From contig NZ_JAOPHT010000006.1 in assembly GCF_025515305.1 (NCBI RefSeq), positions 124,001 to 188,000 of the forward strand: DNA of 64,000 nt. The letters are read 5' to 3'. The DNA comes from Roseicyclus sediminis. Its GTDB lineage: Bacteria; Pseudomonadota; Alphaproteobacteria; Rhodobacterales; Rhodobacteraceae. Below the pieces are notes generated by a model, which was not told where the DNA came from, ran no database searches, and saw only the letters and a program-made list of their open reading frames with translations. This document shows, in pieces, positions 52,085 through 63,439 of the stretch (position 1 is the first letter of the stretch; each line of letters starts with the position of its first letter). Position numbers and translations under genes: made by a program.

Positions 52085-52561
52085 TCTGTTTCTCCCTCTG
52101 AACGCAGTGTAGTCCGAAATCCGGACATGGACATCACTTCGACTTCCGGCTGCCCCGGCATGGGTGACATTCCTTTGGCCGCGGCGTCTCATGCGGCCAT
52201 CCTGAGCTTCCCGTCTCCGTGTGGATGCGATGGGCCGTGCGACGCTGAAGGGGGCCTTCTTCCGAGGCCGGAGATGCGCCTGAAGGTGTCGATTTCTCCG
52301 CCGACCATTTTGTTGCGCGCACTCGTACTGAGTGAACGGGCTCATGCGGATGCCAAGCGAGGCCCACAGGCGGTCATGAAGGACACGGCGATCGACGGCT
52401 CGGACCGCGGAGCGGTGGCTCGAACACGGCGCAGCGACGATCGGCCTCGAACGCTCCAAGGTTGCTGACGCGCGCTTGTTCCTGATCAACGACGTCCTGA
52501 CGGCCCTGCCCTACCCATATCCCCGTCCAGCCGAGAACCTGTGCATGGAGGAGGTGCAAAC
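52085..52561. other. 477-nt divergent promoter region, no gene seen
   Basis: Separates the divergent lyase/ligase pair and the three-domain fusion gene. The frames crossing it are extensions of neighbours or lack signatures. GGAGGAGGT at 52547-52555 is the fusion gene's ribosome-binding site. Confidence 0.5.
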
Positions 52562-55213
52562 ATGGCCGAGGGACGCTTTCCATTCGAGAACCGTGACGAT
52601 GCCGGACGCAGGCTTGCTTCGGAACTGATCAAGCGCAGCTTCGATGCGCCGGTGGTATTCGCGCTGCCGCGGGGCGGCGTCCCCCTGGGCGCGGAAATCG
52701 CCGAAGCCCTTGGGGCGCCACTGGACCTGATCCTGGTGCGCAAAATCGGAGCACCCCGCCATCCGGAGGTGGCGCTTGCAGCCATTGTCGAGGGCGACCC
52801 GCCCGAGAGGGTCGTCAACGAGGAGGTGATGCGCCGATCGGGCGCCGACCAGGCCTATCTGGACCAGGAAACCGAGCGGCAAGCCGCTGAAATGCAGCGC
52901 CGACGCGAACGTTATCTCGGCAACCGGCGCAGGCTCGACGCCAAGGACAAGACGGCCATCGTGGTCGATGACGGCCTTGCGACCGGCGCCACGATGAAGG
53001 CGGCGCTCATCGCGCTCCGGCGCTGGGGCGCGGCGAGGGTCATCGTCGCGGTTCCAGTGGCGCCGGCCTCCGAGATACCGGCACTTCAAGAGCTCGCGGA
53101 TGAGGTCATTTGCCTGGTCGCCGACCCGCAGTTCCGCGGCGTCGGCGGTGCCTATGCCGACTTTCACCAGCTCACCGACGAGGAAACCATCGGATATCTG
53201 CGCCGGGCATGGACGGTGGCGGAGACGGTCGGGGCGGCCCCGACGCTGCGCCGCACCGTGTCGATCCCGCCCCTTGGGTTGCAGGGCGATCTCGTCGCGC
53301 CGCCCGATCCGCGGGGCGTGATCCTGTTCGCCCATGGCAGCGGGTCGAGCCGCCTGAGTCCCCGCAACCGCAAGGTTGCCGGGCAGTTGAACGACTTGGG
53401 CTTCGCCACGTTGCTGATGGATCTCCTGTCGGAACAGGAAGCTGCGGATCGCCGCAACGTCTTCGACATTCCGCTGCTGGCGGAGCGGCTGCTCGAAGCC
53501 GATCTGTGGATCGCCTCCGAACCGGAACTGGCGGATCTGCCGCTGGGGCTTTTCGGCGCGAGCACGGGAGCGGGTGCCGCCCTCCTGGCGGCCGCGGAGC
53601 TTGGCTCGCGGATCTCGGCCGTGGTCTCGCGCGGAGGCCGGCCCGACCTGGCGGGACCGCGGCTGTCCGAGGTGACAGCGCCCACGCTCCTGATCGTGGG
53701 CGGGGAGGATCCGCAGGTCCTCGCCCTCAACCGCCGCGCCCTCGCCGAGTTGCGTTGCGAAAAGCTGCTGCGGATCGTCCCGGGCGCCGGTCACCTGTTC
53801 GAAGGACCGGGGGAGCTCGAGACCGTCACCAAAATGGCCTGCGCCTGGTTCCAGCATTACGCGACGAAAGATGAGACCGCGCTGGGTGCACCCCCAACCG
53901 GGGAGAAGGCGCCCGCCACACCCGAGGAGATCGTCCGCGCGGCGGCCGAACCCCTGCCGGATCCCGACGACCCGGACTTCGGCGCGGCCTTCGACCGGTA
54001 CGCAACGGCCCGCGTGGTTCTTCTCGGCGAGGCGTCGCACGGCACGTCCGAGTTCTACAGAGCCCGCGCAGCCATCACCCGCAGGCTGATCGAGAGGCAT
54101 GGGTTCAACATCGTCGCCGTCGAGGCGGACTGGCCCGATGCGGCTGTCCTGGATCGTCGGGCGCGTGGGTTGGCGGAAGGTCGTCGCAACGTTTCAGCGT
54201 TCTCGAGGTTCCCGACCTGGATGTGGCGCAACCGGGATGTCGATGACTTCATCGCCTGGTTGCGCGACCACAATTCAGTCCTTCCGATGGAGCAGCGTGT
54301 CCGGTTCCAGGGCCTGGACATCTACAGCATGTTCAACTCGATCGCCGAGGTCCTGGCCTATCTCGATGCCCACGATCCAACCGCGGCGATGGCGGCCCGC
54401 CGCCACTACGGATGCCTGGCACCCTGGGCGAACGAGCCCGCCGCCTATGGCCGTGCGGCGCTGACCCGCGGGCACGCGCTTTGCGAGGAGGCCGTCACGC
54501 GCGTGCTGGTCGATCTCCTGACGCGGGACCTGTCTCAGGCCCGGCGCGACGGCGATCGCTTTTTCGATGCCATCCAGAACGCCCGAGTGGTCGCCGGCGC
54601 AGAACGCTACTACCGGGTGATGTACTTCGGGTCCGCCGAAAGCTGGAACCTGCGCGACACGCACATGTTCGAGACGCTCAAGCAGGCCATGGACCATGTC
54701 GGTCCCTCCGCAAGGGCCGTGGTGTGGGCGCACAATTCTCACATCGGCGACGCCCGCGTCACCGACATGGGCGTGAACCGTGGCGAACTCAACATTGGTC
54801 AGCTCTGCCGTGAGGAATGGGGGGACGACGCCGCCCTGATCGGCTTCGGCACCCATTCCGGCACCGTCGCCTGCGCCTCGGACTGGGATGGGCCGATGGA
54901 GATCAAGGCCGTGCGCCCGTCGCGCGCAGACAGCCACGAGGCCATCTTCCACGCGGCGGGGGTTGAACGTTTCCTGCTCGACCTTCGGCCCGGGGTCGAT
55001 GATGCGCTCCGCGCCACGCTGTCCGGGCCGCGGCTCGAGCGATACATCGGGGTCATCTACCGACCGGAAACGGAACGTTGGAGCCACTACAGCAATGCGG
55101 TCTTGTCGCATCAGTACGATGGCTATGTCTGGTTCGATCGTACGCAGGCCGTGGTTCCCCTGCCCGCCGAGCCCGTGCCGGGAGCCAGGGACACCTATCC
55201 CTTCGGACTTTGA
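52562..55213 (+). CDS. Phosphoribosyltransferase / dienelactone-hydrolase-like / erythromycin-esterase fusion
   Basis: 883 residues from ATG 52562, with GGAGGAGGT 6 nt upstream. Residues 1-215: PRTase fold with FALPRGGVPLGAEIA and PRPP loop IVVDDGLATGAT (133-144). Residues 230-435: alpha/beta hydrolase with HGSGSSRLSPRN, nucleophile Ser335 (GASTGAG, S in ASTG), Asp383 and His411. Residues 470-883: erythromycin-esterase (EreA/B) domain with LLGEASHGTSEFY (487-499), VEADWPD and WAHNSHIGD. Pairwise fusions of these domains are known (for example in mycobacteria); all three together are unusual. It may modify, detoxify or salvage a nucleoside- or lactone-type compound. Confidence 0.88.
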   Translation: MAEGRFPFENRDDAGRRLASELIKRSFDAPVVFALPRGGVPLGAEIAEALGAPLDLILVRKIGAPRHPEVALAAIVEGDPPERVVNEEVMRRSGADQAYLDQETERQAAEMQRRRERYLGNRRRLDAKDKTAIVVDDGLATGATMKAALIALRRWGAARVIVAVPVAPASEIPALQELADEVICLVADPQFRGVGGAYADFHQLTDEETIGYLRRAWTVAETVGAAPTLRRTVSIPPLGLQGDLVAPPDPRGVILFAHGSGSSRLSPRNRKVAGQLNDLGFATLLMDLLSEQEAADRRNVFDIPLLAERLLEADLWIASEPELADLPLGLFGASTGAGAALLAAAELGSRISAVVSRGGRPDLAGPRLSEVTAPTLLIVGGEDPQVLALNRRALAELRCEKLLRIVPGAGHLFEGPGELETVTKMACAWFQHYATKDETALGAPPTGEKAPATPEEIVRAAAEPLPDPDDPDFGAAFDRYATARVVLLGEASHGTSEFYRARAAITRRLIERHGFNIVAVEADWPDAAVLDRRARGLAEGRRNVSAFSRFPTWMWRNRDVDDFIAWLRDHNSVLPMEQRVRFQGLDIYSMFNSIAEVLAYLDAHDPTAAMAARRHYGCLAPWANEPAAYGRAALTRGHALCEEAVTRVLVDLLTRDLSQARRDGDRFFDAIQNARVVAGAERYYRVMYFGSAESWNLRDTHMFETLKQAMDHVGPSARAVVWAHNSHIGDARVTDMGVNRGELNIGQLCREEWGDDAALIGFGTHSGTVACASDWDGPMEIKAVRPSRADSHEAIFHAAGVERFLLDLRPGVDDALRATLSGPRLERYIGVIYRPETERWSHYSNAVLSHQYDGYVWFDRTQAVVPLPAEPVPGARDTYPFGL

Positions 55214-55580: not shown

Positions 55581-56594
55581 TCAGCTGCAAGGACCCGGGT
55601 TGAACGCCTGAGAGGTTACGAAGCCAGACAGCTTCTCGCCGTTCTGCCCATCATGGGTGAACACCATGAGCGTCGGCTTCAGCTGCTTCATGCGACGTAG
55701 TGTGTCGTAGGTCGCCAACGCCAGTGACCGGTTCTCGATGATGCCCGGAATGATCCCTTCATCAACCTGTCCATCGTCGAAGGCGGCATCGCCGGCCAGT
55801 ACGACCTGCCGGTCGCCCAGGTCGATCACGACGCTCTGGTGGCCGACGGTGTGGCCCGGTGTGGCCATCGCGAAGATATCGCCCCGCGCCGTCAGCGGCA
55901 TCACCTGTCCCGCGACCGCATGTGACTCTGCGGATACCGTCTCCTGCACGCGCCCGTCGCGCGGCAACTTCGCCAGCAAGCGGCCGGAACCTCTTGTGGG
56001 CGCGAACTCACCGGGCGAGACGAGGAGGCGCGTCCGGCCGGACAGCGCGCCAAGGTTGCCTATATGGTCCGAATGGGTGTGCGTCAGGACACAAAGCCCG
56101 ATGCGCTCGGGCGCGATGCCCGTCCGGGTGAGCTGGCTCGCAAGGTCGCTGCCCGCTGCCGCGGTCGCGTCGATGATCTTGGGATAGATGCGCCCCATGC
56201 TCTTTGCCGCTTCGCCGAAGTAGGCGGGCGTGCCGAAATCGGCGCTTTCGCCGGTATCGACCAGGATCGCGCCTTCGGGGTGGTCGATCAGCCAGGCGGT
56301 GCAGTCGAGCCAGCCGGTCATCCGCCTGTCCGACATCATCACTGGAAACCGCAGCTTGTCGTCGACGTCCTGCAGATCGGCGGGCAGGGCGCGGTGACGT
56401 TCCCGGATCCGGACGACGCCCACGGGAAGCTGCCACAGGGTGATGCCCCGGCCGAGCGGCCAGGCGGCAGGCATGCGCGGCGCGGGCAAGGGCGGCCGAG
56501 GCGACCAGCGGGCGACCGGCGATCCCGCGAAGGCTGCCATCATGCGACCTAGGTGGGACAGGCGCCGGAACAGCGGAAGCGTCTTTGTCATCAT
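55581..56594 (-). CDS. Metallo-beta-lactamase-fold hydrolase, lactonase-like
   Basis: 337 residues from ATG 56594 (MMTKTLPLFRR). Zinc-site motif THTHSDHIGN (H172, H174, D176, H177), followed by TPGHTVGHQS and LAGDAAFDD for the remaining ligands, and FTHDG near the C-terminus. The N-terminal about 50 residues are Pro-rich and could be a targeting or membrane-proximal region. It resembles acyl-homoserine-lactonase and alkyl-sulfatase-type enzymes; the substrate is undetermined. It is divergent from a TetR gene only 44 bp away. Confidence 0.85.
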   Translation of the reverse strand: MMTKTLPLFRRLSHLGRMMAAFAGSPVARWSPRPPLPAPRMPAAWPLGRGITLWQLPVGVVRIRERHRALPADLQDVDDKLRFPVMMSDRRMTGWLDCTAWLIDHPEGAILVDTGESADFGTPAYFGEAAKSMGRIYPKIIDATAAAGSDLASQLTRTGIAPERIGLCVLTHTHSDHIGNLGALSGRTRLLVSPGEFAPTRGSGRLLAKLPRDGRVQETVSAESHAVAGQVMPLTARGDIFAMATPGHTVGHQSVVIDLGDRQVVLAGDAAFDDGQVDEGIIPGIIENRSLALATYDTLRRMKQLKPTLMVFTHDGQNGEKLSGFVTSQAFNPGPCS

Positions 56595-56608
56595 GGGTCC
56601 ATGTGCTA

Positions 56609-56625
56609 TCTTAACAGTGTTTAGA
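56609..56625. promoter_or_regulatory. TetR operator-like dyad
   Basis: TCTTAAC, three bases, GTTTAGA: 7-bp arms with one mismatch, centred in the 44-bp gap between the metallo-hydrolase and TetR starts. The gap is so short that one bound dimer would block both promoters or leaders. Confidence 0.6.
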
Positions 56626-56638
56626 ATACGTGACGGAG

Positions 56639-57244
56639 ATGGCATTGGATCAGGAGAAAGAAGACGCCCGGCCATACCATCACGGAGACCTGCGGCGCGC
56701 GATCCTGGATGCGGCGGAGCGGCGGCTTGAGACAGGCGGCGTTCAGGCGGTCACGATCCGCGCCTGCGCGCGCGAAGCCGGCGTCTCGCCTGCGGCGCCG
56801 ATCCATCACTTCGGCAGCCTCAGGGGCCTTCTGAGCGCGCTGGCCGCCCGCGGCTTCGACCGGCTCGTCGTGCGTCTCGATGAGGATGCGCTGGCGGGGC
56901 GGGCGCGGACCCCGGCGTCCTTGCTCGTGGGGGCATATGTGTCCTTTTCCCTTTCCGCGCCGAACCTGTTCGACCTGATGTGGCGGGACGACATGCTGGA
57001 CCCCGTAGACGACGATCTGGCTCGGGCCCGGCGGCGGGCGCTTGACTGTCTACGCCTCTTGTCCTCGGCTCCGTCCGAAGGTCGCTCGGCCCGCGTGCAG
57101 GCGATCCGGATCTGGTCGCTCGCCCACGGCCTTGCCATGCTGCTGCGGCATGGCCGGATCGTGTCTGCGCTGGGCAGCGAAGAGTACGGCCTTGAGACGA
57201 TCGGGGACTTCGAGGCGCTTGCCCGGGACGCGGACTTCGCCTGA
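56639..57244 (+). CDS. TetR/AcrR-family repressor of the metallo-hydrolase gene
   Basis: 201 residues from ATG 56639 (MALDQEKEDARPYHHGDLRR). The helix-turn-helix spans about 34-65 (VTIRACAREAGVSPAAPIHHFG), and the C-terminal domain has SLAHGLAMLLRHG. It shares the YHHG opening with the TetR at 4538-5131. It is convergent with the deiodinase-like gene by 20 nt. It presumably senses the hydrolase substrate or product. Confidence 0.86.
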   Translation: MALDQEKEDARPYHHGDLRRAILDAAERRLETGGVQAVTIRACAREAGVSPAAPIHHFGSLRGLLSALAARGFDRLVVRLDEDALAGRARTPASLLVGAYVSFSLSAPNLFDLMWRDDMLDPVDDDLARARRRALDCLRLLSSAPSEGRSARVQAIRIWSLAHGLAMLLRHGRIVSALGSEEYGLETIGDFEALARDADFA

Positions 57245-57264: not shown

Positions 57265-57945
57265 CTACATGTTGCCGACGTTGACGTGCTTGGCGATGAG
57301 CTTGCGCAGGCCCCAGACAAAGTCGAAGGCGGCGATCAGTCCGCCGCTCAACAGGACGCCGATGGCAGCGAAGTTGAGCGGCGGCTTCGCCTTCAGCTCC
57401 TGCGGCGCGACCGGGACGCGGGCGGAGATGCGCGTGAGGATGTCGCCGATGCTGTCGGTGTTGTTCCAGATGCTGCGGTAGAGGATCGTACCGTCGGTAT
57501 CGATCACGTAGATCGAATTCGGCATCGCCCCGTAGGCCTTGTGCGCGACACCGTCGAGGTCGTCGACAAGCGTGATGCGCCCCTCGTGGTGGCGCGACGT
57601 CGACCGGATCGCGGCATCGACCTTGGCGTCCTGGGTCGCGTGCTGCGGCGTGCGCTCGCCGGGGTGCGCCTCGCGGACATAGAGGACGACGAAGTTGAGG
57701 TCCGGGAACCTCGTGACCATCCCCTGCATCGGCGGGGCGGACTGGGCGTACATCGGGCAGGTGAGGCTTCCGGTTTCCAGCACCAACGGCTTGTCGAGGA
57801 AGTCCGATATCCGGGCGGTGCCGCCGTCGAGCGTCCGGAGTTCTGCGTCGACGAAGCGGTCGCCGGCGGCAAGTCCCGTGAACGCGGAGAACTCATATTC
57901 TTCCGGGGTGAAGCGGCGGTAGTTGTAGGTGGGGGCGGTCATCAT
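57265..57945 (-). CDS. Deiodinase-family thioredoxin-fold protein with Cys at the catalytic position
   Basis: 226 residues. PLVLETGSLTCPMYAQ places Cys63 where vertebrate iodothyronine deiodinases carry selenocysteine in their GSCT-U-PPF-like loop. The next strand VVLYVREAHPGE (86-97) matches the conserved YI-EAH segment of that family. The thioredoxin fold continues to about 180 with NSIYVIDTDGTILYRS. A membrane helix lies at about 193-212, so the protein is probably anchored with its domain in the cytoplasm or periplasm. It is the last gene of an RND efflux operon. The reaction of bacterial members is not established. Confidence 0.78.
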   Translation of the reverse strand: MMTAPTYNYRRFTPEEYEFSAFTGLAAGDRFVDAELRTLDGGTARISDFLDKPLVLETGSLTCPMYAQSAPPMQGMVTRFPDLNFVVLYVREAHPGERTPQHATQDAKVDAAIRSTSRHHEGRITLVDDLDGVAHKAYGAMPNSIYVIDTDGTILYRSIWNNTDSIGDILTRISARVPVAPQELKAKPPLNFAAIGVLLSGGLIAAFDFVWGLRKLIAKHVNVGNM

Positions 57946-57980
57946 GAAATCCTTTTGGATTTGGGCTTGGAGGATGGGGT

Positions 57981-58457
57981 TCAGCGGGTCAGAGCGAAGA
58001 CGACCTGAAGGACGGCGACGCTCGCCGCCGTGAACAGCCCGACGTGGTGCAACGCGGCCAATTGACCAAGGCCGGTCCGTACCGAGCCGATCGCGCTGTC
58101 AGATGGGGTCAGGTCGACCGCGCGGATGCGGGTTCCGAGGATCGACAGCAGATAGGACATGCAAAGGCCGAAGTGCAGCAGGATGACCAGCGAGAACCAG
58201 CCGAACCCGGCGAGCCAGGCCTGCAGCACCAGCAGCACCGCACCGCTGCCCATCGTCACCATCATCGTGGGCGGCAGAAGGTGAATGACGCGGCGCAGCT
58301 GCGCGTGGATGTCGCGTACCATCCTGTCATCCGCGCGCCGGCTCATCGGGTCGCGCATCAGGCTCCAGACCGGCTTCTCGACCAGCGATAGGACGGTGAA
58401 GATGCCTGCGGCAAAGGTGAAGCAGGCGGTGGCGAGCAGGGTGACAAGGTCGGGCAT
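57981..58457 (-). CDS. Small four-helix membrane protein in the RND/deiodinase-like operon
   Basis: 158 residues from ATG 58457 (MPDLVTLLATACFTFAAGIF). Four hydrophobic helices (about 5-27, 62-80, 85-108 and 134-155). A charged loop MRDPMSRRADDRMVRDIHAQLRR follows helix 1, and an HH pair (LAALHHVGLF) lies in helix 4. It resembles DUF1772-type membrane proteins, but the assignment is weak. It begins 20 nt after the RND pump stop and is 35 nt upstream of the deiodinase-like gene. Confidence 0.68.
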   Translation of the reverse strand: MPDLVTLLATACFTFAAGIFTVLSLVEKPVWSLMRDPMSRRADDRMVRDIHAQLRRVIHLLPPTMMVTMGSGAVLLVLQAWLAGFGWFSLVILLHFGLCMSYLLSILGTRIRAVDLTPSDSAIGSVRTGLGQLAALHHVGLFTAASVAVLQVVFALTR

Positions 58458-58477
58458 GGGTGAGCTCCAAAAGTTCG

Positions 58478-61400
58478 TCAAGCCGCTTGGTGCGCGGACG
58501 GGTGAGTGGTGACCGGCTTTGGCCTGTCGCCGAACAGGACGCGGTAGAGCGCGGGGACGTAGAACAGCGTCATGACCGACGAGACGCCGAGGCCGCCGAT
58601 CATCAACGTGGCCATCGGCTCCCACAGCGCGCCGCCGCTCAGCGCCATGGGCAGGAGGCCCAAGACGGTGGTGAGCGAGGTGAGGAGGATCGGGCGGAAC
58701 CGCTTCCGCGCGGCCTCGGCGATGGCCTCGGACAGCGGCAGCGTCTCGCGCTCGATGTCGATCTGGTCGATGAGCACGATGGCGTTGTTGATGATGATGC
58801 CCGACAGGGCGATCAGCCCGAGCGTTCCGAAGAAGCTTAGCGGCTGGTCGAGCCCGATCAGCGCGAACGGCACACCCACGACCACGAGCGGCACGCACAG
58901 AAGCGTCAGCCCGACCCGGCGGAAGGAATTGAACTGCGCCATCAGTGCCGTGAGCATCACGACCAGCGCCACCGGGAGCCCCGCGCCCAGCTTCTCGCGT
59001 ACCTCACCCGCCTGTTCGACCTCTCCGCCGATGCGGATGTCGTAGGCGGGGCCGAGCTCGGACGACAGGCGGTCGAGCGTTGGCTGGATGTGGCCGACAA
59101 GCTCGAGCGCGGGCAACTCGGAAGAGATCGCGGTCACCGTCAGCCGGCGGACCTGGTCGACACGGCGGATGGTCGAGAAGTCCAGATGCGGCTCGAACCG
59201 GGCGATCTGGTCGAGCGACACGAGACCCCCCGGCGTCGCGATCGCGATGTTGGCGAGGTCGCCGAAGCTGTCGCCGTTGCCGGGCGCCCCGCGCAGAACG
59301 ATGGGGATCTGACCGTCAGCGTCGCGTAGGACCGACACCTGCGTTCCATCGAGGAACCCCTCGAGCGCCTCGGAAACGCTCTGCGAGGTCAGGCCGTAGT
59401 GCCGGGCCCGGTCCTGCGCCACGACGACCCGCGCCTGCAGGACCCGATTGCCCCAGTCGCCCTGATTCTCGACCATGCCCGGCGCGGTGGCGAAGGCTGC
59501 CTCGACCTCCTGCCCGGCTGCCAGCAGAGCATTGGCGTCGGGGCCTTCCAGCACCACCTCGATTCCCGGCTCGCGCCCGCCCATGGCGAGCCGCTTGAGC
59601 CGCACCCTCGCTTCGGGGAACGTCGCGGCGACATGCGCCTCTGCCGCGGCGATGACCTGCGCAGAGGCGGGGAAATCGGTGGTGTTCACCACCATGAAGG
59701 CCGAGGCCGGGTCGAAATCTGCGGGGTCCAGCGTGAGGACGAAGCGCGGCCCGCCGAAGCCTACGAAGCTCGTCACGCCGGTGACGCGGTCGTCGGCGGT
59801 CAGCCAGTCGGACAGCCGCAGCGCCGTAGCCTCGGTCGCGGCGATGTCGGACCCGCGTGGCAGGTCGAGGTAGATCAGGAACTGCGGCCGCTCGCTCAAG
59901 GGGAACAGTTGCTGGCGGACGTTCGGCATCTGGCCGACCGCGCCGACCACGATCAGCGCCGAGGCCGCAAGGGTCAGATAAGGCGCGCGCACCACCCGCG
60001 CCACCACCCAGCCATAGCCGCGCGCGGCCCGGTCCATCAGCCCGGGACGCGTGAGAGGCTTCGGGTCCGGCAGGAACCAGACCGCGAGCGCGGGGAGAAG
60101 GTACACCGCCGAAAGGAACGACCCCGTCAGCATCAGCGCCACGACCGCCCCCAGCGAGAAGCCGTATTGTCCTTCGGTCCCGTCGAGGAGGAACAGCGGA
60201 AGGAATGCCGCGACCGTGGTGATCGAAGCGATCAGGAGAGGCAGCGTGTACTGCCGCCCCGCGGCCAGGGCCGCCTCGGCCCGCGTGGTGCCGGCACGGA
60301 TGCGGCTGTCCATGTCCTCGACGATGACGAGACCGTTGTCGACCAGGAGACCCAGCGAGATGATGATGGCCGCGATCGAAACCTGCTGCAGTTCGATCCC
60401 GAGGAACGGCATGAAGACGAAGGCAAAGCCCACCGCGAAGGGCACGATGGAAGCGATCACCAGCGCCTGCCGCAACCCCAGGAACAGGGTCATCACCCCC
60501 AGCACGACGAGGAAGGTCTGGAGCATGTTGACCAGCGCGTTGTTGACGGACACGGCGACGACCTCGGGCTGGAAGGTCGAGAACGCGGCCTCGACCCCCC
60601 AGGGCTGATCGCGCACGAAGGCATCGACCACGAGCCGCAGGTCGCTGCCCACGGCCACGATATCTTCGCCCGCGAACATTTCGACGCCGAGGACGATGGC
60701 CGGCTCCCCGTCATGGAAGACCGGCGTCTGCCGAGGCTCCACCGTACCGCGCCGGACGTGAGCCAGGTCGCCCAAGCGCAGCAGGCCGACGCCAGGGATG
60801 TCGACGATCATCTCGGCGATGTCGTCCACGCCGCCGAAATCGCCCGTCGTCTCGAGCGCAAAGCGCAGGCCCTCCGACACGATGGAGCCCGAGGGCAGTC
60901 GCACGTTCTGCGCCCTGAGCGCCGCGATCACGGGGTCAAGCGTGGTGCCGAGGGACGACAGCCGGTCGCGGTCGATCTCGATCCAGATGCGTTCCTCCTG
61001 CACCCCGTGCAGCGTGACGGCCGAGACTGTGTCGAGCGCATAGAGCCTGTCGCGCAGGTCCTCGGCGAAACCTTCGAGGTCGGTCGGGGGAAAGCCCTGC
61101 GCGGCCACGGCGACGGTAGCGATCGCCACATCGCCGAAGTTGGTGTTCACAAGCGGCCCGACGGTGCCTTGCGGCATCTGGGGGGCCAAGGCCTCGATCT
61201 CGTTCTCGATCTCGCGGAAGACCGCGGCGATGCCGCCCTCGGGAACCGCGGTGTCGAGATCGATCTGCAGGATCGCGCCGCCTTGCAGCACCTGCGTCCG
61301 CACCTCGTCGACGCCCGCGATGGCGCGTGCGCGTTCCTCGACAGGCCGCGCGATCAGCTCCTCGATCTGCACCAGCGGCAGGCCCTGGTTGATGGCCGTG

Positions 61401-61543
61401 ACGACGGCGGTGCGTACCGTGATCGCCGGGTCCTCGCGCTTGGGGAAGCCGAGGTAGGTTCCCGCGCCGAGGGCGAGGATGACCAGCATCACGAGGATGG
61501 TCAGCCGCTGGCGCGCGAGCCCGAAGCCGGTCAGCGAGGTCAC
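58478..61543 (-). CDS. RND-family efflux pump, inner-membrane permease (second)
   Basis: 1,021 residues with the two-fold RND architecture and twelve membrane helices. It starts MTSLTGFGLARQRLTILVMLV, and the first porter loop has EDPAITVRTAVVTAINQGLP. Helix 4 carries LVDNGLV where AcrB has LVDDAIV, again keeping only one of the two proton-relay Asp residues. Its ATG overlaps the adaptor stop by 4 nt. It is different from the pump at 6393-9524. It is controlled by the divergent TetR at 62786. Confidence 0.92.
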   Translation of the reverse strand: MTSLTGFGLARQRLTILVMLVILALGAGTYLGFPKREDPAITVRTAVVTAINQGLPLVQIEELIARPVEERARAIAGVDEVRTQVLQGGAILQIDLDTAVPEGGIAAVFREIENEIEALAPQMPQGTVGPLVNTNFGDVAIATVAVAAQGFPPTDLEGFAEDLRDRLYALDTVSAVTLHGVQEERIWIEIDRDRLSSLGTTLDPVIAALRAQNVRLPSGSIVSEGLRFALETTGDFGGVDDIAEMIVDIPGVGLLRLGDLAHVRRGTVEPRQTPVFHDGEPAIVLGVEMFAGEDIVAVGSDLRLVVDAFVRDQPWGVEAAFSTFQPEVVAVSVNNALVNMLQTFLVVLGVMTLFLGLRQALVIASIVPFAVGFAFVFMPFLGIELQQVSIAAIIISLGLLVDNGLVIVEDMDSRIRAGTTRAEAALAAGRQYTLPLLIASITTVAAFLPLFLLDGTEGQYGFSLGAVVALMLTGSFLSAVYLLPALAVWFLPDPKPLTRPGLMDRAARGYGWVVARVVRAPYLTLAASALIVVGAVGQMPNVRQQLFPLSERPQFLIYLDLPRGSDIAATEATALRLSDWLTADDRVTGVTSFVGFGGPRFVLTLDPADFDPASAFMVVNTTDFPASAQVIAAAEAHVAATFPEARVRLKRLAMGGREPGIEVVLEGPDANALLAAGQEVEAAFATAPGMVENQGDWGNRVLQARVVVAQDRARHYGLTSQSVSEALEGFLDGTQVSVLRDADGQIPIVLRGAPGNGDSFGDLANIAIATPGGLVSLDQIARFEPHLDFSTIRRVDQVRRLTVTAISSELPALELVGHIQPTLDRLSSELGPAYDIRIGGEVEQAGEVREKLGAGLPVALVVMLTALMAQFNSFRRVGLTLLCVPLVVVGVPFALIGLDQPLSFFGTLGLIALSGIIINNAIVLIDQIDIERETLPLSEAIAEAARKRFRPILLTSLTTVLGLLPMALSGGALWEPMATLMIGGLGVSSVMTLFYVPALYRVLFGDRPKPVTTHPSAHQAA

Positions 61544-62685
61544 GGCGTCACCGCAGCGTCATCCATTAGCCTGACCGTCTGGCCCGCCTGCAGGAAGGGG
61601 ACGCCCGCCGTCACGACACGTTCGCCCGGGTCGAGCCCCTCCACCACGATCATGCGGCTTTCGTCGAGGCCCGCCAGGACGACGTCGCGCAGGTCGAGCG
61701 TCCCGTCGGCCGGTTGGAAGACGAACACGCGCCCCGCGCGGTGGAGCCCGTCGGGACCCGCGGGCCGAAGCTCCTCGGTCATGTGCGTGGCGAGGGCCGA
61801 GACGGGGATGGGCAGGCCGCCAGCGCTGTCCCTCAAGGGCAGCTCGATCAAGACTTCGGCGGCCATGCCCGAGCGCAGGTCCGGCAGGATGTCCCGCAGG
61901 GTGATGATGACCGGGAAGGCCGAAACTGCGGGCGCGCGATCCGCGATCTCCGTCACCGCGGCGACGAGTTGCCGCTCGCGCTGGTCGGCCGGACGGACCG
62001 TCACCTCCTGCCCCAGACGAAGCTGAGACACGACGTCGTAGCTGACGAGCATGCGCGCCTGCAGGTTGGTCTCCCGGTACACCGTGACGGCGACGCGGCC
62101 CGGTTGCAGCGTGTCGAAACTCCGCACCTCGACCGAGTTCACCACCGCATCGAAGGGGGCCGTCAGCCGTGTCTCGTCGCGGCTGACGGCGATGAGATCC
62201 ACCTGGCGCTGGGCCTGGTCTACGCGGGCCGCAGCCTGTTCGAGCGTCCGGTTCGCCCCGTCGAGTGCGGCCTGTGCGACGACCCCGCGCGCGAACAGCG
62301 ACGCCTGCCGTTCTGCCCCGTCCTGCGCGCCGGCAAGCGCGCTTTCCGCCTCTCCAAGCGCCGCCTCGGCCTGCCGAAGTTGCAGGTCAATGGTCGCGGC
62401 ATCGAGGGCGAGAAGCTCCTCGCCCTGCGACACGCGCTGGCCGACCTGCAGGTCTACCTCGCCCAGGCGACCCCCGAGCTCGAGCGCGAGGCTCGTCAGT
62501 TGCGGCGGCTCCAGCACCGTCGGAAACGCGCGGGTCACGGACACGGGCAGGGGTTCCGCGACGATCGTCCGGACGGACCGGACCAGGGGCTCCGGCGCAT
62601 TCCCGACTTCGGCCTCGTCTTCGACGCAGCCAGCCACGGCAAGGACAAGGCCGATCGCCAGATACCGGGGTGCCATGAAGTTCAT
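61540..62685 (-). CDS. RND efflux adaptor lipoprotein (membrane fusion protein)
   Basis: 381 residues from ATG 62685, with GAGGA about 7 nt upstream. A lipoprotein signal ends LAVAGC (Cys20), so the adaptor is lipid-anchored, unlike the first pump's adaptor. Then lipoyl halves (ELGGRLGEVDLQVGQRV and LTAPFDAVVNSVEV), an alpha-hairpin (about 90-155) and a barrel domain. It is the first gene of the operon adaptor-pump-membrane protein-deiodinase-like. No outer-membrane channel gene is in the window. Confidence 0.91.
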   Translation of the reverse strand: MNFMAPRYLAIGLVLAVAGCVEDEAEVGNAPEPLVRSVRTIVAEPLPVSVTRAFPTVLEPPQLTSLALELGGRLGEVDLQVGQRVSQGEELLALDAATIDLQLRQAEAALGEAESALAGAQDGAERQASLFARGVVAQAALDGANRTLEQAAARVDQAQRQVDLIAVSRDETRLTAPFDAVVNSVEVRSFDTLQPGRVAVTVYRETNLQARMLVSYDVVSQLRLGQEVTVRPADQRERQLVAAVTEIADRAPAVSAFPVIITLRDILPDLRSGMAAEVLIELPLRDSAGGLPIPVSALATHMTEELRPAGPDGLHRAGRVFVFQPADGTLDLRDVVLAGLDESRMIVVEGLDPGERVVTAGVPFLQAGQTVRLMDDAAVTP

Positions 62686-62702
62686 GAAGGGATCCTCGAA
62701 TT

Positions 62703-62752
62703 GGTACCAACAAGTACCATCTTGCGTGAGGCATATGGTACCATTAAGTACC
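62703..62752. promoter_or_regulatory. Paired TetR operators, pattern GGTAC-N6-GTACC
   Basis: GGTAC-CAACAA-GTACC at 62703-62718 and GGTAC-CATTAA-GTACC at 62737-62752, 34 bp apart, in the 100-bp divergent region between the adaptor and tetR genes. The two copies and their arm symmetry make them the likely binding sites of the TetR protein at 62786. Confidence 0.75.
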
Positions 62753-62785
62753 GAGTCAACAGCCATGTTCGGAGAGGGGGAAAAA

Positions 62786-63439
62786 ATGGCCGCATCGACC
62801 CGGGTCATCGAGCGCCGGAGCAGCGATGCGCGACGCGCCCTGGTTATCTCCACCGCCCGCCAGCTGTTTCTCTCGAAGGGGTTTGAGCAGACGTCGATCA
62901 AGGACATCACCGACATCGCGGGCGGGTCCCGGCGCGACATCTACGGGATGTTCACGGACAAGGAGGGTCTGTTCGACGCGGTCCTTCAGTCCCTGATCGC
63001 CGACATCGTGTCGCCCGCCGAGATGACCCTTCCTTCCGGGCCGGGTGAGAGCATCGCACAGGAGCTGAAGTCCTTCGGCTTGCGCCTCCTCGGCAGCATG
63101 CTGAACCCGTCGGCCGTGGCCATCTTCCGGCAGTTCGTATCCATCGGTGCCGCGCGGCCCGAGATCGGCAGACAGGCCTACCTCTCCGGTCCGTGCGTGC
63201 TCTATCGCAGGCTGGCGGACTACTTTGCCGCATGCGACAGCGGCGGTCGCCTGAAGATCGATGATGCCGAAAAGACTGCCCGGGTCTTCGTGGAAATGCT
63301 CAAGGGCGATTACCAGTTGCGCGCGCTCATGATGAACGAGACCGCATTCGAAGCTTCCGATCTGGCCGACCACGTCGAGAAGGTCGTGGCCCTCTTTCTG
63401 AACGGGGTCGCGCTCCGCACAGCGGAAAGCAGGACCTGA
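62786..63439 (+). CDS. TetR/AcrR-family repressor of the RND/deiodinase-like operon
   Basis: 217 residues from ATG 62786, with GGAGAGGGGG just upstream; an in-frame ATG at 62765 is less likely. The helix-turn-helix spans about 33-66 (TSIKDITDIAGGSRRDIYGMFTDK), with an AefR-like helical C-terminal domain. It is divergent from the adaptor gene, with two GGTAC-N6-GTACC operators between. The ligand is probably a pump substrate. Confidence 0.88.
   Translation: MAASTRVIERRSSDARRALVISTARQLFLSKGFEQTSIKDITDIAGGSRRDIYGMFTDKEGLFDAVLQSLIADIVSPAEMTLPSGPGESIAQELKSFGLRLLGSMLNPSAVAIFRQFVSIGAARPEIGRQAYLSGPCVLYRRLADYFAACDSGGRLKIDDAEKTARVFVEMLKGDYQLRALMMNETAFEASDLADHVEKVVALFLNGVALRTAESRT

Follow-up and report, generated by a model that had tools for sequence, protein, structure and literature searches.

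An efflux operon facing a TetR gene

The window analyzed here is a 64,000-nucleotide stretch of a 197,880-base contig in a 4.14-Mb genome (G000). At positions 57265-63439, it carries a TetR gene (TetR1) divergent from a run of four genes that encode a periplasmic adaptor, an RND pump, a four-helix membrane protein (4TM), and a deiodinase-like protein (DIO) (Table 1). The adaptor and RND genes overlap by 4 bp, and the remaining gaps in the operon measure 20 and 35 bp. The ORF list and the profile scans bore out all of the gene positions claimed in the first-pass annotation, and its description of the adaptor as a lipoprotein agrees with a lipobox-like AVAGC read from the sequence.

Table 1. Positions in the window of the operon, its predicted operators, and the adjoining regulator genes
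Feature	Position	Strand	Evidence or remarks
DIO, 226-aa predicted deiodinase-family single-Cys thioredoxin-fold protein	57265..57945	-	PF00837 50.2 bits; PDB 4tr3 E 1e-11; relay residues; low-confidence AF2 model
DIO landmarks			C63, putative nucleophile; REAHPGE 91-97; hydrophobic C-terminal helix about 192-224
4TM, 158-aa four-helix membrane protein	57981..58457	-	no Pfam family; AF2 model
RND efflux permease (ACR_tran)	58478..61543	-	471.2 bits; closest solved relatives 6vej and MexK
Periplasmic adaptor (membrane fusion) lipoprotein	61540..62685	-	TIGR01730 174.7 bits, cut-off 94.9
Predicted operator 1, TGGTACCAACAAGTACCA	62702..62719		TGGTAC-N6-GTACCA; pattern search
Predicted operator 2, TGGTACCATTAAGTACCG	62736..62753		TGGTAC-N6-GTACCG; 34 bp from operator 1
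TetR1, AefR-like (TetR_C_7) putative repressor, divergent from the operon	62765..63439	+	TetR_C_7 83.2 bits
TetR2 (TetR_C_33), tail to tail with DIO, divergent from an MBL-fold gene	56630..57244	+	profile scan

The pairing of an ACR_tran permease with an RND_mfp adaptor (scores in Table 1) identifies a tripartite RND pump of the HAE type. Among solved structures, the RND protein is closest to 6vej, which we take to be TriC, and to MexK (440 and 422 bits). A review that mentions the TriC structure lists triclosan, in a table, for TriABC, MexJK, and several other pumps (PMC8277102). Because many RND pumps export triclosan, the substrate can hardly be told from closeness to TriC and MexK. The best plasmid-borne RND homologue, from Ruegeria, is 48.7% identical; its TetR gave no BLAST match to TetR1 or TetR2, and the feature list of that plasmid contains no 4TM or DIO. 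Downstream of homologous RND genes, we also observed a small protein with a TTLG(Y/F)GD motif (L090 777-1202, L093 11596-12090, and L095 11382-11798), presumably like that of the two-helix potassium-channel domain.

Two further genes were noted beside the operon. An MBL-fold hydrolase gene (55581-56675, minus strand) lies divergent from TetR2; its nearest relatives are AttM-type lactonases, with a score far below their cut-off. At 52541-55213 (plus strand), an 890-aa fusion combines a phosphoribosyltransferase domain with a full erythromycin-esterase domain (447 bits), and its middle part, judged by eye, has the look of an alpha/beta-hydrolase.

The operator pattern TGGTAYN6RTACCR occurs at two places only in the window genome, 62702 and 62736. 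In another genome of the host family, G171, two sites lie 34 bp apart in the homologous TetR|adaptor-RND intergenic region, and two others lie elsewhere; the pattern was found once in G203 and not in G235 or G140. The backward pattern, used as a control, matched twice in G000, once in G140, twice in G203, and not in G171 or G235. With two control matches in the window genome itself, we place the weight on position, spacing, and conservation and not on number. On these grounds (place, 34-bp spacing, and recurrence in G171), the two operators named in the first-pass annotation stand as conserved predicted sites. A TetR1 homologue with TetR_C_7 was found at locus L089 in G171. A perfect palindrome of the TetR1 type also precedes an AraC-type gene in G171 (C4:29154; L114 7155), near a Rieske-type oxygenase and a ferredoxin-type reductase, all assigned by reading. 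Since the backward control gives 0-2 matches per genome, this site may be due to chance.

The deiodinase-like protein and the four-helix protein

DIO scored above the curated Pfam cut-offs of both T4_deiodinase (PF00837; 50.2 bits, cut-off 27) and AhpC-TSA (PF00578; 34.0 bits, cut-off 26), with the higher score for the former. Against solved structures, Dio3 (4tr3; E 1e-11) and Dio2 (1.7e-7) ranked first, followed by a thioredoxin-family protein (0.0013), and a profile built from four DIO sequences gave the same ranking, with Dio3 and Dio2 at its head. DIO falls below the NCBIfam equivalog deiodinase_rel (NF038285), with 68.5 bits versus a cut-off of 250. The peroxiredoxin active-site motif is PxxxT/SxxC; at this position, DIO reads L56-xxx-S60-xx-C63, and the Pro is missing. 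C63 is the sole Cys in DIO of the window and in its three close homologues (L002, L020, and L021), leaving no CxxC, and this disfavors a TlpA- or SCO-type redoxin. No signal peptide was seen by eye.

Alignment with Dio2 paired its residues S127, T129, U130, Y157, E160, H162, and H182 with S60, T62, C63, Y89, E92, H94, and H102 of DIO. This confirms two features that had been claimed from the letters of the window, Cys63 in the place of selenocysteine and the EAH segment at 92-94. In Dio2, Glu160, His162, and His182 together with Ser127, Thr129, and Tyr157 constitute a proposed proton relay (PMC11592359). Twenty-four DIO-like sequences were aligned, leaving out the broken G157 copy, the second G055 copy (L032), and the cut G069 copy (L033). 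C63 is present in 24 of 24, E92 and H94 in 21, H102 in 13, and all seven positions in 12; the three sequences without the Glu and His (L047-L049) were the weakest matches of their search and have the look of generic redoxins. The two relay histidines are spaced by 7 residues in DIO versus 19 in Dio2, and most of loop-D is missing.

In an AF2 model of DIO built from two sequences (pLDDT 61.6), the fold is that of a thioredoxin and a long helix lies at the C-terminal end, with low confidence at C63 and EAHPGE. A fold search with this low-confidence model returned generic thioredoxin folds, with no deiodinase among the top 50 matches listed. Structure prediction around Cys63, one of the checks proposed in the first-pass annotation, has low confidence in the active-site region itself, and the fold search lent the family assignment no further weight. 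The proposed profile comparison came out for the deiodinases: PF00837 outscores AhpC-TSA, the solved structures that match best are those of Dio3 and Dio2, and the relay residues are kept. A better match to generic AhpC/TSA or SCO-type redoxins, which had been named as one finding that would speak against the proposal, was not obtained, the deiodinase signal being higher and the Cys single. These data support the assignment of DIO, by sequence, to the deiodinase family.

The 4TM proteins share EKPVW or EKPIW, H51, R56, HLLPP, and LHH; no Cys is conserved. The AF2 model (pLDDT 74) places helices at residues 2-35, 44-83, 87-116, and 119-157. A Pfam scan of five members found nothing common to two of them, and the fold search gave no match at E<=0.001; an NCBIfam Nramp match (18.2 of 50 bits) was taken as a membrane-helix artifact. 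Among 295 genomes of the host family, 17 had matches, 12 of which were weak and partial (E 7e-6 to 8e-4, about residues 9-91) and were dropped; the two of these that were read (L055 and L056) appear to be ABC sugar permeases. This left five bearers: G000, G140, G171, G203, and G157, the last with a broken copy. The single matches among 398 genomes of the phylum and among 151 genomes of the phylum of a Chloroflexota MAG were each the query's own genome, and 4TM was absent from the plasmid set searched. That so rare a protein is present in both the host family and the Chloroflexota MAG points to horizontal transfer. A role for 4TM solely as the electron donor of DIO is weakened by G203, which has 4TM and the pump with no DIO match, and by the lack of a conserved Cys.

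Recurrence and regulation in other genomes

DIO matched 15 of the 295 family genomes at E<=1e-5. Close homologues (56% identity to the window protein) occur in the Chloroflexota MAG (L002) and in the family genomes G171 and G140. At L002, L020, and L021, 4TM adjoins DIO or lies near it, and a TetR gene is divergent from 4TM; no RND match was found within the 17-20 kb read at these loci. DIO of L002 lies on the opposite side of the TetR gene and has its own upstream region, which contains TGTTGACA and a 15-bp-arm palindrome with TGTTG/CAACA. Broken copies of 4TM and DIO were found in G157, a genome that is 80% complete.

Conservation of the four-gene order, on which the first-pass annotation had let its proposal depend, was seen in none of these three other intact 4TM-DIO loci. 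The combination of pump and DIO fared better than the order, as it is supported by recombined arrangements and by a common TetR clade and operator. G203 has the order TetR | 4TM-adaptor-RND, with an RND protein 59% identical to that of the window and no DIO match at E<=1e-5. In G171, a TetR1-type gene faces adaptor-RND on a different contig from the TetR|4TM-DIO cassette; the window has both fused. In G127 and G157, a TetR gene of the clade found beside 4TM-DIO faces adaptor-RND. The adaptor (E<=1e-30) is present in 12 of the 295 genomes, which represent 294 genera, and it occurs together with 4TM in four (hypergeometric P 7.8e-6, or 1.5e-4 excluding the window genome, in a test that ignores the tree and counts G157 with its broken 4TM and DIO). 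Eight of the 12 adaptor bearers (G008, G020, G089, G126, G127, G139, G194, and G251) have no 4TM or DIO at the thresholds used, and G140, with 4TM-DIO, has no adaptor match at E<=1e-30. Our results show that 4TM is recurrently linked with DIO and with the RND subfamily of the window.

The TetR proteins of three 4TM-DIO loci (L002, L020, and L021), one 4TM-adaptor-RND locus (L073), and two adaptor-RND loci (L091 and L090) group together in a single clade (support 100/99). The promoters at these loci have a common motif, TGTTGAC..CTACAT-N5/8-ATGTAG..GTCAACA, whose quality varies: the core is exact in L020, L021, and L091, has one base changed in L073, where it lies inside a 19-bp-arm palindrome, is degenerate in L090, and is reduced to one half in L002. 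The strict pattern CTACAT-N3-8-ATGTAG matched four of seven genomes. G171, G140, and G127 have one place each, always the promoter of the clade TetR, and the Oscillochloris genome has two, on other contigs than its cluster; G000, G203, and G157 gave no match. The backward control of the strict pattern matched, among the seven genomes, in G000 only. With one TetR clade and a shared motif before both cassette types, one predicted regulator type precedes DIO cassettes in some genomes and pump cassettes in others.

A clear orthologue of the clade TetR was not found in the window genome, where TetR1 faces all four genes. TetR2 was considered for this role. When the window genome is searched with the G171 regulator, TetR2 comes first (59.7 bits versus 45.8 for the next), and we rejected its orthology to the TetR beside 4TM-DIO as unproven because its identity to six clade members is 20-28%, the support of the join is 82/83, and the strict clade operator is missing from the window genome. 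TetR2 appears to be at best a distant relative of the clade and a candidate member of the system only.

More distant relatives were found in the next eight family genomes by rank (E 3e-44 to 1.5e-32, 36-41% identity), each with a DIO gene. A MarR gene, identified by Pfam, lies directly upstream of DIO in five of them (G112, G082, G243, G094, and G069), and in one of the remaining three, G095, the contig ends at that place. L022 has a confirmed divergent ArsR-type gene, and L023 and L033/L034 have a similar look. On a Mycolicibacterium plasmid, a divergent TetR gene is followed by a CMD (AhpD-type) gene and then by the deiodinase-like gene, with an annotated glutaredoxin-domain gene nearby. These MarR, ArsR, and TetR regulators, which are of ligand-sensing types, suggest that the adjoining DIO genes respond to chemicals. 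No common neighbor was seen in the distant loci L026, L027, L029, L030, L031/L032, and L035. Two observations stand apart from these neighborhoods. A stretch on a Roseicitreum antarcticum plasmid (L036 8001-8273) is 50.5% identical to DIO residues 105-195 only and is possibly a remnant; the gene list, which is incomplete, has no gene there. G055 has a larger deiodinase-like ORF at two places on one contig (L031 and L032), the copies being similar in length and score.

A putative inducible detoxification system

The recombined arrangements, the shared TetR clade, the shared operator, and the G171 sites together indicate that DIO, 4TM, and this RND subfamily probably belong to a single inducible system, directed at a lipophilic compound that may be phenolic or halogenated. 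The best explanation of the window, which we hold with modest confidence only a little above even, is that the operon serves inducible detoxification. The toxicant, lipophilic and probably aromatic or phenolic, would bind TetR1 and free both operators, and expression of adaptor-RND-4TM-DIO would follow. Together with an outer-membrane channel encoded elsewhere, the RND-adaptor pump would then expel the compound. 4TM, with a face rich in His, Arg, and Glu, would sit in the inner membrane and probably bind or process the same compound, and DIO may be kept at the membrane by its C-terminal helix. We infer that the Cys63 thiolate would reduce the compound or a product of it, with S60, T62, Y89, E92, H94, and H102 acting as a deiodinase-like proton relay, and that a low-molecular thiol or thioredoxin would recharge DIO.

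DIO might instead be a one-Cys peroxidase for lipid or organic hydroperoxides that arise from membrane damage by the pumped compound, with no dehalogenation. The AhpC-TSA score above its cut-off would fit such a role, as would the pairing of a deiodinase-like gene with an AhpD-type gene, close to a glutaredoxin-domain gene, on the Mycolicibacterium plasmid. The higher PF00837 score, the retention of E92, H94, and H102 from the deiodinase relay, L56 in place of the Pro of PxxxTxxC, and the absence of a resolving Cys argue the other way, and we consider a peroxidase possible but somewhat unlikely. As a thiol-disulfide oxidoreductase of the TlpA, ResA, or SCO kind, DIO would service the pump or an envelope protein. 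The low-confidence model does match thioredoxin-like, ResA-, and DsbE-type structures first, but the sequence searches rank Dio3 and Dio2 first, all four close homologues have one Cys and no CxxC, and no signal peptide was seen by eye, which makes this role highly improbable.

The two halves of the operon may also have met by chance, an RND operon having inserted before a 4TM-DIO pair, so that separate stress genes with no common substrate now stand in a row. Such a fusion would be in keeping with the separate cassettes of G171, a four-gene order not met again, 4TM-DIO without the adaptor in G140, and the eight of 12 adaptor bearers that have neither 4TM nor DIO. Against it stand the second joining of 4TM to adaptor-RND, in another order, in G203, the same TetR clade and operator motif before both cassettes, and a co-occurrence P of 1.5e-4 excluding the window genome; on balance, we find it unlikely.

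Triclosan and the iodothyronines are both hydroxylated halogenated diphenyl ethers, and this likeness lends appeal to a more specific proposal. DIO, as a Cys homologue of the deiodinases, and 4TM would dehalogenate hydroxylated halogenated aryl ethers of iodothyronine or triclosan shape, with the TriC-like RND pump, also induced by these compounds, keeping their level low. The export of triclosan by many RND pumps weakens the proposal, and we regard it as decidedly doubtful; if true, a function would be known for the first time in the bacterial deiodinase-like family. PBDEs and OH-BDEs are able to inhibit deiodinases, and calculations suggest possible debromination of the heavily brominated PBDEs (PMC7144113).

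For the inducible detoxification operon that we prefer, a regulon tying one DIO branch to an RND subfamily, together with the operators mapped in its promoter and 4TM as a new family of membrane proteins, offers a direct route to the inducer and hence to the substrate class. If the inducer is a halogenated aromatic compound, the origin of deiodinase chemistry would become testable in bacteria. The operon pairs a pump with a relative of the enzymes that activate thyroid hormone. Our literature searches, judged by titles and the beginnings of abstracts, yielded no paper on a pump-deiodinase operon, and no function for bacterial deiodinase-like proteins was found in the literature searched. The linkage of a deiodinase-like protein with an RND pump appears to be new.

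Bacterial deiodinase-like proteins with Sec or Cys have been in print since 2005 (PMC1088965), and a 2026 review lists them among selenoproteins whose functions "remain largely," in a sentence incomplete in the available text (PMC13188914). They resemble DIO in family (PF00837) and in a Cys or Sec nucleophile; the available parts of both papers give no operon or pump context, whereas DIO of the window lies in an RND operon with a TetR neighbor and 4TM (PMC1088965, PMC13188914). The vertebrate deiodinases (mouse Dio3, 4tr3, and Dio2, 9h48) share with DIO the sequence family and the Ser/Thr/Cys-Sec/Tyr/Glu/His/His relay set (PMC11592359). They differ in having Sec, the 19-residue histidine spacing, and an N-terminal membrane anchor, where DIO has Cys63, 7 residues, and a hydrophobic helix at its C-terminal end.

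Bmp8, the reductive debrominase of pentabromopseudilin synthesis, is a bacterial protein that takes one bromine off a pyrrole, proposedly via its cysteines, and is alike in the proposed thiol-based debromination of a heteroaromatic ring (PMC5577590). It differs from DIO in protein family, in its biosynthetic role, and in having no pump. Bmp8 is a member of the CMD family, and a CMD gene adjoins the deiodinase-like gene in L037. Among pumps, Agrobacterium TriABC is repressed by TriR, which senses triclosan (PMC12838394). Agrobacterium TriABC/TriR, Pseudomonas TriABC, and MexJK are like the window operon in that its RND protein is nearest to 6vej and MexK among solved structures and in the adjoining repressor gene. 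TriABC has two adaptor genes, for TriA and TriB, whereas the operon of the window has one adaptor gene and adds 4TM and DIO.
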